Origin: Nitrospirota bacterium
GTDB taxonomy: Bacteria; Nitrospirota; Nitrospiria; JACQBZ01
DNA: 46,021 bases
Assembly: GCA_016201865.1 (NCBI GenBank)
Contig: JACQCA010000093.1
Location: forward strand, 1-46,021
Direction of reading: 5' to 3'
Shown: piece by piece, positions 4,475-46,021 of the stretch
Layout: each line of letters starts with the position of its first letter
Numbering within the stretch: the stretch's first letter is position 1
Notes under the pieces: model-generated
What the model saw: only the letters and a program-made list of their open reading frames with translations
Databases searched by the model: none
What the model was told of the DNA's origin: nothing
Made by a program: the position numbers and the translations under genes

Positions 4475-4804
4475 CTACCATTCTTTGAAGATGAAGAAGA
4501 CGGCGCCGATCATCATCGAAAACCCGACAAGGGTGTTCCATTTCAGGCCTTCTTTCAGATACAGCACCGAAAAGATGCAGAAGACGACCAAGGTGATGAC
4601 CTCCTGGATCGTTTTCAACTGCGCGGCCGTAAATTGGTAATGCCCGATGCGGTTGGCCGGGACCTGGAAACAGTACTCCACGAACGCAATCAGCCAACTG
4701 ATCAGGATGGCCTTCCAGAGAAGAGAGTCTTTGTACTTGAGATGCCCATACCAGGCGATCGTCATAAAGATGTTCGAGACCGTCAAGAGGAGGATCGTTG
4801 TCAT
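4475..4804 (-). CDS. DUF486 / DMT-like small membrane protein
   Basis: This 109-residue protein has four membrane helices. It begins MTTILLLTVSNIFMTIAWYG, continues with AFVEYCFQVPANRIGH and QLKTIQEVITL, and ends in FFIFKEW. These are the conserved blocks of DUF486, a single-domain relative of drug/metabolite transporters. The length matches the family. ATG 4804 is chosen because family members begin there, although a longer open frame exists upstream. No clear Shine-Dalgarno site is seen; a TATATT run lies very close to the start, so the mRNA leader may be very short. Substrate unknown. Confidence 0.78.
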   Translation of the reverse strand: MTTILLLTVSNIFMTIAWYGHLKYKDSLLWKAILISWLIAFVEYCFQVPANRIGHYQFTAAQLKTIQEVITLVVFCIFSVLYLKEGLKWNTLVGFSMMIGAVFFIFKEW

Positions 4805-4898
4805 GAAAATAAATATACCAGAAAGTCTGCGGTCAGGCAAGAAGAGCATCCGCCATGAAAACGGGATTGCAAAAGCGATCAGGGATCGGGTATTCTTT

Positions 4899-44129: not shown

Positions 44130-44996
44130 ATGAAGGTTCGGGAATGTTTTGACGGCAAAAAACCGGTCTTCTCATTTGAGTTCCTCCTGCCCAAGACGCC
44201 GGAAGGAATGGTCCAATTCAAATCGACCGTCCGTAATCTAAAACGGCTTTCGCCTTCCTTCGTCACGCTGACCTACGGGGCCGGCGGGTCGGCCCGCGAA
44301 CGGACGATCGAGACGGCCGGGATGATCCAGAACGAGCTGGGGCTCACGACCGTCGCCCATCTCACCTGCATCGCCCATACGCGGGTCGAGATCCGGGCGA
44401 TCCTTGAGAAGATCCGCAGCCTCGGCATCGAGAATGTCATGGCGCTGCGGGGGGACCCACCACGGGATATCGCGCTTCCGCCCGAGGATCGCCGGGACTA
44501 TCGGCATGCCGTGGACCTGGTCCGCCACATCCGGAAGATGGACGGTTTGTGCATCGGCGTCGCGGGCTATCCAGAAAAACATCCCGAGGCCGTCACGATG
44601 GAGGAGGACCTGCAGCATCTAAAAGATAAGGTCGCGGCCGGGGCGGACTTCATCACGACCCAACTGTTCTTTGAGAACAAGGACTACTTCCGGTTCATCG
44701 AGAAGGTCCGGGCGATGGGGATCCCGCAGCCGATCCTGCCCGGCCTGATGCCGGTCACCAATTACGGCCAGCTCCAAAAATTTGCGGCGATGTGCGGCGC
44801 GCGCATCCCGGACGAGATGATCCGAGCCCTGGAATCCCGGCAGACCGATACAGAGTACGTCGTCCGATACGGGATCGAATGGACCACCCGTCAGGCCCGT
44901 GATCTCTTAGGCAAGGGCGCGCCCGGAATTCATTTTTATACGCTCAACAAATCCCGTTCGACCGAAGTGATTCTGTCGCGGCTGCTGGGACGGTAA
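44130..44996 (+). CDS. metF: Methylenetetrahydrofolate reductase
   Basis: This 288-residue flavoenzyme begins MKVRECFDGKKPVFSFEFLL and has FVTLTYGAGGSARERTIETA, TVAHLTCIAHTRVEIRAILE, ENVMALRGDPPRD, GVAGYPEKHPEAVTMEEDLQ, AGADFITTQLFFENKDYFRF and GIHFYTLNKSRSTEVIL, all MetF family blocks. It makes 5-methyl-THF for methionine synthesis. AAGGA lies about 10 bases before ATG 44130. A REP-like palindrome follows the stop by 9 bases. Confidence 0.92.
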   Translation: MKVRECFDGKKPVFSFEFLLPKTPEGMVQFKSTVRNLKRLSPSFVTLTYGAGGSARERTIETAGMIQNELGLTTVAHLTCIAHTRVEIRAILEKIRSLGIENVMALRGDPPRDIALPPEDRRDYRHAVDLVRHIRKMDGLCIGVAGYPEKHPEAVTMEEDLQHLKDKVAAGADFITTQLFFENKDYFRFIEKVRAMGIPQPILPGLMPVTNYGQLQKFAAMCGARIPDEMIRALESRQTDTEYVVRYGIEWTTRQARDLLGKGAPGIHFYTLNKSRSTEVILSRLLGR

Positions 44997-45063: not shown

Positions 45064-45251
45064 GGGGGTCACTCTCCCCCGAGTCTCTCGATCAATGAGA
45101 GGCGGCTCATCGGGCCGGCAGCGGCGGCCGGTTCGGTGGGGCGGGCGGACCTGGGTCCGGCCCGGCGCGGTGAGGCGCCGATGGAAGGAGGTGGTCCAGT
45201 GGGAAGCAGTATTAACCCTACGGCGAGTGAGGTGGCCGCGTCCTAAGCGCC
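45064..45251 (+). ncRNA. Candidate structured RNA of unknown family
   Basis: The stretch is very GC-rich and full of nested complementary arms: GGGGG/CCCCC (45064-68/45076-80), CTCTC/GAGAG (45085-89/45097-101), CGGGCCGG/CCGGCCCG (45111-18/45157-64), GGCGC/GCGCC (45164-68/45247-51), CGCGG/CCGCG (45166-70/45236-40) and CGCCG/CGGCG (45176-80/45221-25). At the tip, UCC-AGUG-GGA followed by AGCAG (45195-45209) recalls the signal-recognition-particle RNA domain IV, but the invariant CAGG and GGAA loop are missing. A strong terminator follows at 45321. No convincing ORF occupies the region. Identity is unproven. Confidence 0.3.
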
Positions 45252-45258
45252 ACAAGCT

Positions 45259-45283
45259 GGGGACAGATTTCAAATCTGTCCCC
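45259..45283. repeat. Palindrome GGGGACAGATTT-C-AAATCTGTCCCC
   Basis: A perfect 12-bp inverted repeat with a 1-base centre. It resembles REP sequences linked with RAYT (TnpA-REP) transposases in other genomes; no such transposase is in the window. Confidence 0.75.
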
Positions 45284-45292
45284 GCGGTGTAG

Positions 45293-45311
45293 CCTGGGAT
45301 GCATTCCCAGG
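45293..45311. repeat. Palindrome CCTGGGA-TGCAT-TCCCAGG
   Basis: A perfect 7-bp inverted repeat with a 5-base centre, 9 bases after the previous palindrome. Together they look like a REP doublet of two types. Confidence 0.65.
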
Positions 45312-45320
45312 GCCACCAAG

Positions 45321-45380
45321 CCCGGAAGCGCGGACGTCGTAGCCGCTTTAGGATGAAGAATCCGCTTCCGGGTTTTCTTT
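45321..45380 (+). terminator. Predicted intrinsic terminator with a branched loop
   Basis: CCCGGAAGCG (45321-45330) pairs perfectly with CGCTTCCGGG (45363-45372), followed by TTTTCTTTTTT. The 32-base loop can hold two small hairpins, CGG/CCG and GGAT/ATCC. It ends whatever is transcribed across 45064-45320 and insulates the DUF433 gene. Confidence 0.7.
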
Positions 45381-45415
45381 TTTCTAACGTCCGTCCCGGT
45401 TGTATTCCAAAACTA

Positions 45416-45470: not shown

Positions 45471-45686
45471 ATGAACCCGCGCATCGTATCCGACCCACAA
45501 ATCTGTGGCGGCGAACCCTGCATCAAGGGAACGCGCATTCCCGTCCATATCGTGCTCAGCCACCTTGCCGCCGGGGAAGACTACAAAACAGTCCTAAAAC
45601 AGTTCCCGCGACTGACCAAAGAAGATATCCTTGCCTGTCTTGAATATGCCGCATACCTGGCCACTGAGAAGGTGGCGTCTGGGTGA
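45471..45686 (+). CDS. DUF433-family antitoxin
   Basis: This 71-residue protein has IVSDPQICGGEPCIKGTRIP and VLKQFPRLTKEDILACLEYA, the DUF433 signature (D-P-x-I-x-G-G-x-P-x-I-x-G-T-R-I/V). The fold is a winged helix, and DUF433 proteins are usually encoded just before a DUF5615 PIN-like toxin. GGAGA lies 5 bases before ATG 45471. Its stop overlaps a GTG that looks like the old toxin start (GTGA, 45683-45686), but only the toxin's C-terminal half remains. Confidence 0.85.
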   Translation: MNPRIVSDPQICGGEPCIKGTRIPVHIVLSHLAAGEDYKTVLKQFPRLTKEDILACLEYAAYLATEKVASG

Positions 45687-45855
45687 AGTTCGGTTTCCCC
45701 CTAACCGGACTGCCGGCATCATTTTCATCCGGCGCGGCAATCTCACTTCAGAGGAAGAGATCGGGCTGGTTCGAGACTTCCTGTCGCACCATTCGCCGGA
45801 AGACTACGCGGGCAGGCTTGTGACCCTTTACAAGAACAGCGTGAAGATTCGTTAA
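45683..45855 (+). pseudogene. DUF5615 PIN-like toxin remnant
   Basis: The overlap GTG AAG TTC at 45683-45691 matches the usual start of DUF5615 toxins (M/V-K-F). A different frame then encodes TAGIIFIRRGNLTSEEEIGL and HHSPEDYAGRLVTLYKNSVK-IR, the family C-terminus, ending at TAA 45853-45855. About half of the usual 115 residues, including the acidic N-terminal active-site region, are missing, and the two ends are out of frame. It is an internal deletion, so the toxin is very probably inactive. Confidence 0.7.
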
Positions 45856-45887
45856 ATTATTGCGGGATACCGGGCCTCAACACCCCA

Positions 45888-45915
45888 ACCCGCGCCGCCG
45901 CGGATTCTCGGTCGG
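45888..45915 (-). repeat. GC-rich dispersed motif, copy 4 (inverted)
   Basis: On the minus strand it reads CCGAGAATCCGCGGCGGCGC, then GGGTTG, closely matching copy 1 at 861-888. It directly precedes the attC site. Confidence 0.55.
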
Positions 45916-46013
45916 CTCTAACGCTCCCGGTGAGCGGCGGCCCACAGATACGGAGCCAGACATGGAGAAAAAAGCCTGCGCTGTGGGCCGTCCGCTCCAC
46001 TGGGTTGTTAGGC
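45916..46013 (+). repeat. Integron attC recombination site
   Basis: The left end is CTCTAAC (45916-45922) and the right end is GTTAGGC (46007-46013), a perfect GTTRRRY R' box. Between them, GAGCGG-CGGCCCACAG (45932-45947) pairs with CTGTGGGCCG-T-CCGCTC (45981-45997), leaving one T unpaired. An outer CCC-G-GTG/CAC-T-GGG arm has a second extra base. Extrahelical bases on one strand and a central loop of about 33 bases are the features the integrase uses. The site is 98 bases. An ATG at 46019 may begin the next cassette. Confidence 0.78.
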
Positions 46014-46021
46014 CAGGGATG

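Follow-up and report, generated by a model that had tools for sequence, protein, structure and literature searches.

The last 106 bases of a groundwater Nitrospirota contig are occupied by a sequence resembling an integron attC site, which raises the question of whether the element is a real attC and, if so, to what kind of structure it belongs. The window analysed here is this whole contig (C27 of genome G000, 46,021 nucleotides), and its right edge is the contig end, 8 bases beyond the attC; the array itself is unseen in this genome. We consider it very likely that the element at 45916–46013 is the last attC of the array in a decayed chromosomal integron located between metF and tpmt and linked to a second contig, C97. 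The find is a modest one, mostly an ordinary attC of a decayed chromosomal integron of the reversed type. The features of the locus are collected in Table 1.

Table 1. Positions of the features at the attC locus and of related sites; coordinates without a contig label refer to the window.
Feature	Position	Strand	Evidence
metF (methylenetetrahydrofolate reductase-like), left anchor of the locus in the family	44130..44996	+	ORF; orthologues in 7/7 family genomes
DUF433 antitoxin-like gene, intact, array flank	45471..45683	+	Pfam PF04255, 89 bits
DUF5615 (PIN-like) toxin remnant, frameshifted	45683..45855	+	comparison with G006
Array flank, 99.6% identity to G006:C201	45688..45923		sequence comparison
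Contig end, 141 bases, 100% identical to end of G005:C11 (another genus)	45881..46021		sequence comparison
attC (top strand = window minus strand), terminal attC of cassette array	45916..46013	-	covariance model R1, template, DNA folds
R' box GTTAGAG; expected crossover G|TT between 45922 and 45921	45916..45922	-	sequence
Second EHB, T, bottom strand	45991	+	plus-strand fold; 6 bases between it and first EHB, class 1 spacing
First EHB, C (45997 = equivalent choice)	45998	+	plus-strand fold
R'' box GCCTAAC, fits RYYYAAC	46007..46013	-	sequence; covariance model alignment
IntI remnant, TIGR02249 253-304, 99 bits	C97:3-158	-	profile search of genome
tpmt (TPMT-like methyltransferase gene)	C97:1096-1761		ORF/locus comparison
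attC	G006:C201 1377-1439	-	locus comparison
Cassette ORF, 199 residues, T5orf172 (PF10544)	G006:C201 2033-1434	-	Pfam
IntI C-terminal remnant	G006:C201 2483-2238	-	locus comparison
C28-end attC sites (L195), around DUF1801 ORF	C28:79286-79334 and C28:79729-79793		R1, 27.4 and 19.4 bits
attC candidate	C75:2614-2704		R1, 27.6 bits

The element is a genuine integron attC, ordinary in kind. It forms a 98-base palindrome with the plus-strand ends CTCTAAC and GTTAGGC. Folded as single-stranded DNA, the plus strand reaches −30.1 kcal/mol (z −5.6; none of 200 shuffles folded equally well), compared with −25.8 kcal/mol (z −4.3) for the minus strand. Matched against a rigid template of class 1 geometry, in which R'' is followed by 8 nt, an extra base, 6 nt, a second extra base, the stem, 6 nt, 9 nt and R', the element reaches a score of 19 out of 21, and no other site in the window scores 14.5 or more. 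The top score in 40 Markov shuffles was 16.0, while the scores of established class 1 attC sites range from 16.5 to 20.5, with all best matches in the expected orientation. The covariance model R1, built in this analysis rather than taken from IntegronFinder, was trained on 15 attC sites (11 from class 1 plasmids and 4 relatives) with the element itself excluded. It yields a single significant match in the 46 kb window, on the minus strand of the element only, with 38.4 bits and E = 2.1e-8, E-values being rough for a model of few sites, many of them aadA-like. Rfam at gathering thresholds gives no match in the window. The first-pass annotation had called the element an attC from its sequence and terminal boxes, and the folds, the template and the covariance model all confirm that assignment. 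Two other searches were set aside: a plain RYYYAAC...GTTRRRY search of the genome was uninformative (47 matches compared with 79 for the reversed-pattern control), and an initial symmetric-hairpin scan produced many false sites and was superseded by the covariance model together with a template that takes the EHBs into account.

Compared with class 1 cassette attC sites of the aadA1, aadA2 and aadB type, the element has the same R''-8-EHB-6-EHB geometry, the same right-arm spacing of 6 and 9, complementary R boxes, and an array-end R' of the GTTAGA type. It differs in its variable terminal structure, which is longer (41 bases compared with 3 in the model), and in its first bottom-strand EHB, which is C where class 1 sites usually have G.

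The polarity of the site follows from the EHBs, which by definition sit on the R''–L'' arm (PMC2727003), where two or three are expected 6–8 nt apart. The two found here, C45998 and T45991, are in the right-hand arm of the plus-strand hairpin, and therefore the minus strand is the attC top strand, with R'' and R' swapped relative to the earlier assignment. The complementary boxes GCCTAAC and GTTAGAG pair at 5 of 7 positions, and the last R' base is not Y. GTTAGAG is thus an incomplete GTTRRRY, which is normal for an array end, yet no proof of one; class 1 array ends carry GTTAGAT. The imperfect last base is expected because the right half of R' (TTAGAG) belongs to the flank after the last cassette. 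A comparison of C27 with contig C201 of genome G006 supports the polarity independently: the plus strands are identical through CTCTAACG, the expected crossover, and diverge directly after it. This polarity places the cassette to the right, beyond the contig end, and makes position 45916 the array terminus; the array that the attC closes very probably extends past the contig. In the presence of an integron integrase, the bottom strand of the attC (the plus strand here) would fold into a hairpin whose polarity the EHBs determine, and a cut at G|TT in R' (45922/45921) would excise or insert a cassette to the right.

The sequence that such a contig end may lead to can be seen in a sister genus. 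Contig G006:C201 (record JACQHO010000228.1, 3154 bases, from a groundwater Nitrospirae bacterium, contig name k141) carries the metF tail, DUF433, an intact DUF5615 gene, attC, one cassette, attI, an IntI C-terminal remnant and the start of tpmt, in this order, and so connects the left flank with both attI and the IntI remnant in a span of ~900 bases. In G000, the left part of this locus is the end of C27 and the right part is the start of C97, where the IntI remnant is followed by nucleotidyltransferase and HepT-like genes, tpmt and a P-type ATPase. Because the same left flank bridges to the same IntI remnant in G006:C201, C27 and C97 are very probably neighbours with a cassette array between them, as judged from the sister genomes. 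The attI present in G006 would fall in the C27–C97 gap in G000, and the array would be read on the minus strand, from attI by the IntI remnant on C97 leftward to the window edge. Genome G005 has an identical split of the locus (contigs C11 and C34). The genes metF and tpmt are also near neighbours in G001, G002 and G003, with variable content between them and no IntI or attC match in that interval. The genomes are metagenome bins, in which mis-binning or a chimeric contig is possible, and we considered whether G006:C201 is a chimera; the order of metF, the toxin-antitoxin pair and tpmt on it is consistent with that of the locus in the family. No exact end overlap was found between G006 contigs C201 and C40 (which holds the rest of metF), and that link is unproven. 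A search for the continuation to the right of the window found no exact match among viral contigs.

A different explanation would take the site as a lone attC, that is, a secondary insertion of a single cassette with no integron platform nearby, in the CALIN sense. The C27 contig indeed has one attC only, and further attC sites are scattered at C75 and C28. We nevertheless find this improbable, as G006:C201 links the same left flank to attI and an IntI remnant, and the same remnant opens C97, upstream of tpmt. A CALIN is a cluster of at least two attC sites without intI (IntegronFinder; PMC9024848); there is one attC at the C27 locus, while the C28 end has two, ~440 bases apart. The likeness to CALIN consists in the absence of an integrase above the cut-off and in attC sites scattered on C27, C28 and C75, whereas attI and an IntI fragment persist in the G006 locus and a single attC is visible here. 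The earlier suggestion of a CALIN therefore holds in part: an array very probably runs past the window and no full-length integrase accompanies it, but the attI and IntI remnant in G006 and the remnant on C97 mark an integron platform.

Less probable still, and already contradicted, is the orientation proposed in the first-pass annotation, with CTCTAAC as R'' of a plus-strand attC, the DUF433 gene and toxin remnant as its accessory cassette, and a new cassette running rightward from an ATG 6 bases after the site. The right-end GTTAGGC is a perfect GTTRRRY, and the gene pair does stand before the site. The two unpaired bases in one arm, cited as the hallmark of attC, are real, but it is the right arm (plus strand) that carries them, so the site is reversed, and both the covariance model and the template match the minus strand only. 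Moreover, the left flank is conserved while the sequence right of CTCTAA|C varies between genera, no attC was found left of the gene pair by the template or R1 in the window, and attI and the IntI remnant are on the right side in G006. The ATG consists of the last 3 contig bases, is on the wrong strand for the cassette that the site closes, and is uninformative. The DUF433 antitoxin gene and the frameshifted DUF5615 toxin gene are flank, not a cassette; relative to G006, where the intact DUF5615 homologue scores 67.6 bits with PF18480, the toxin remnant has a 178-base internal deletion between two GTTCG copies. That annotation is thus partly supported: it correctly recognised the site and a cassette array on the right that lacks a functional local integrase, but misjudged the orientation and the role of the toxin-antitoxin pair. 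The lesson is that attC polarity should be taken from the EHBs and not merely from the better-looking GTTRRRY box.

That the element is a chance palindrome, a transcription terminator or a REP-like element is next to impossible: its hairpin is GC-rich and strong on either strand, but it has no T-run, its attC geometry outscores all 40 shuffles, its R1 E-value of 2e-8 comes from a model independent of the site, and the sister genus has a different attC of the same geometry at the equivalent position.

The integrase of this integron appears to be broken. No full-length IntI was found over the TIGR02249 cut-off in the genome (completeness 95%, with an integrase in a gap possible), in line with the earlier suggestion of an array possibly lacking a local integrase; the profile search finds only the C-terminal remnant on C97 (TIGR02249 253–304). 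Its counterpart in G006 covers TIGR02249 positions 253–315 with 117.8 bits over 63 residues, a tail of about 62–63 residues. The remnant is without the core-binding domain and without the first catalytic arginine, and its 5' truncation lies inside contig C97 and is therefore not an assembly cut. The remnant is probably inactive, and with the integrase reduced to a C-terminal fragment the site would be inert in cis unless an integrase were supplied in trans. Among 296 sampled Nitrospirota genomes, 70 have an integrase over the family cut-off and others have fragments only, which indicates that integrons are widespread and often decayed in Nitrospirota. A 2022 survey of complete genomes recorded just two CALIN in Nitrospirota, both from one genome (PMC9024848).

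In Treponema integrons, intI, attI and the cassettes run in the same direction (PMC3607928). This reversed layout, with intI and cassettes on the same strand and attI at the intI 3' end, is seen directly in G006:C201, and the orientations of the C97 remnant and the C27 attC give the same layout in G000, assuming that the two contigs are joined. The likeness lies in the common direction of remnant, attI and cassettes; the differences are that here the integrase is cut to its C-terminal end, the host is a member of Nitrospirota, and the array is unseen in this genome. The 62 residues of the remnant were judged too few for an IntI C-terminal tree, and layouts were read from attC polarity around full-length intI genes. 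Within the class, full-length intI is found in the reversed layout in G018 and in the standard divergent layout in G011, G013, G016, G017, G029 and G038; the reversed layout is also common around close IntI relatives in other phyla.

In genome G010, from a related family, contig C11 has an attI with 77% identity over 177 bases to that of G006, followed by two cassettes in the same direction. Their attC sites (87 and 53 bits) are intact and point away from attI, which confirms the attI polarity. The two loci share homologous attI sequences and cassette direction; they differ in that no IntI remnant was found beside the G010:C11 attI, where two cassettes and their attC sites remain intact. G004 has an attI homologous to that of G006 with one cassette-like ORF. 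The first attC of the G010:C11 locus (L167 5140–6742), with 87 bits, is closely like a class 1 resistance cassette attC. On G043:C16 (L044 5240–5850), an IntI C-terminal remnant is flanked on both sides by attI-like sequence, with a cassette and attC at 4759–4815 beyond the remnant; this looks like nested or duplicated integron platforms.

The position of the contig end has a plausible explanation. The identical stretch common to C27 and G005:C11 is exactly the final 141 bases of each contig, and a second stretch of exactly 141 bases is common to C97 and G005:C34 on the opposite side. A search of about 400 Nitrospirota genomes found this end of C27 only in G000 and G005, apart from a weak partial match (88%) in G002. 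The 141-base end reads as an assembly-graph (de Bruijn) node entered from two genomes in a k141 assembly. A shared node of this kind would mean that both species carry identical sequence from 45881 on, and the contig would then end where the same sequence occurs in two co-assembled species. G000 and G005 would, accordingly to this picture, come from one co-assembly.

The ends of the array are far more similar between genera than the genes around them. Between G000 and G006, identity is about 79–85% in metF and tpmt (about 79–84% for metF, read in 100-base steps), compared with 99–100% at 45700–45899 and 98.8% at C97:1–240. This contrast suggests that the segment has recently been exchanged between genera. 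The match of G005 to the final 141 bases is exact, yet no match to C27 was found just left of them. The simplest reading would be that the integron segment has recently moved between three genera belonging to one family. One could speculate further that the integrase-less integron still turns over cassettes among co-occurring genera, with whole arrays being swapped, though we regard this as doubtful. In such a swap the constant ends (the array terminus at one end, attI with the IntI remnant at the opposite one) would serve as homology arms for homologous recombination; alternatively, an integrase could act in trans. At this locus, the behaviour of a cassette array once its integrase is broken can be compared cleanly across three genera.

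Downstream of metF, the segment 45067–45381 contains an element that recurs between metF and tpmt in those family genomes that were examined. It carries a strong ribosome-binding site, a GTG start and a 15-codon ORF (MGSSINPTASEVAAS), as well as a CCACCA segment and an intrinsic terminator. The Rfam family Ms_IGR-5, an actinobacterial sRNA, matches 45177–45381 over its full length, although its 32.6 bits (E = 8e-6) do not reach the gathering score of 45.

Further attC sites had been anticipated at the outset, and this genome does contain other attC-bounded cassettes, at the C28 end and on C75. The C28 end, close to the contig end, is a second cassette locus of this genome. Contig C6 has apparently degraded sites at 1770–1835 and near 2433, below the reach of model R1. 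Nucleotidyltransferase/HepT-like toxin-antitoxin pairs occur near integron remnants on both C6 and C97 (L009 200–900, L008 400–1050), identified by Pfam on C97 and by sequence reading on C6.
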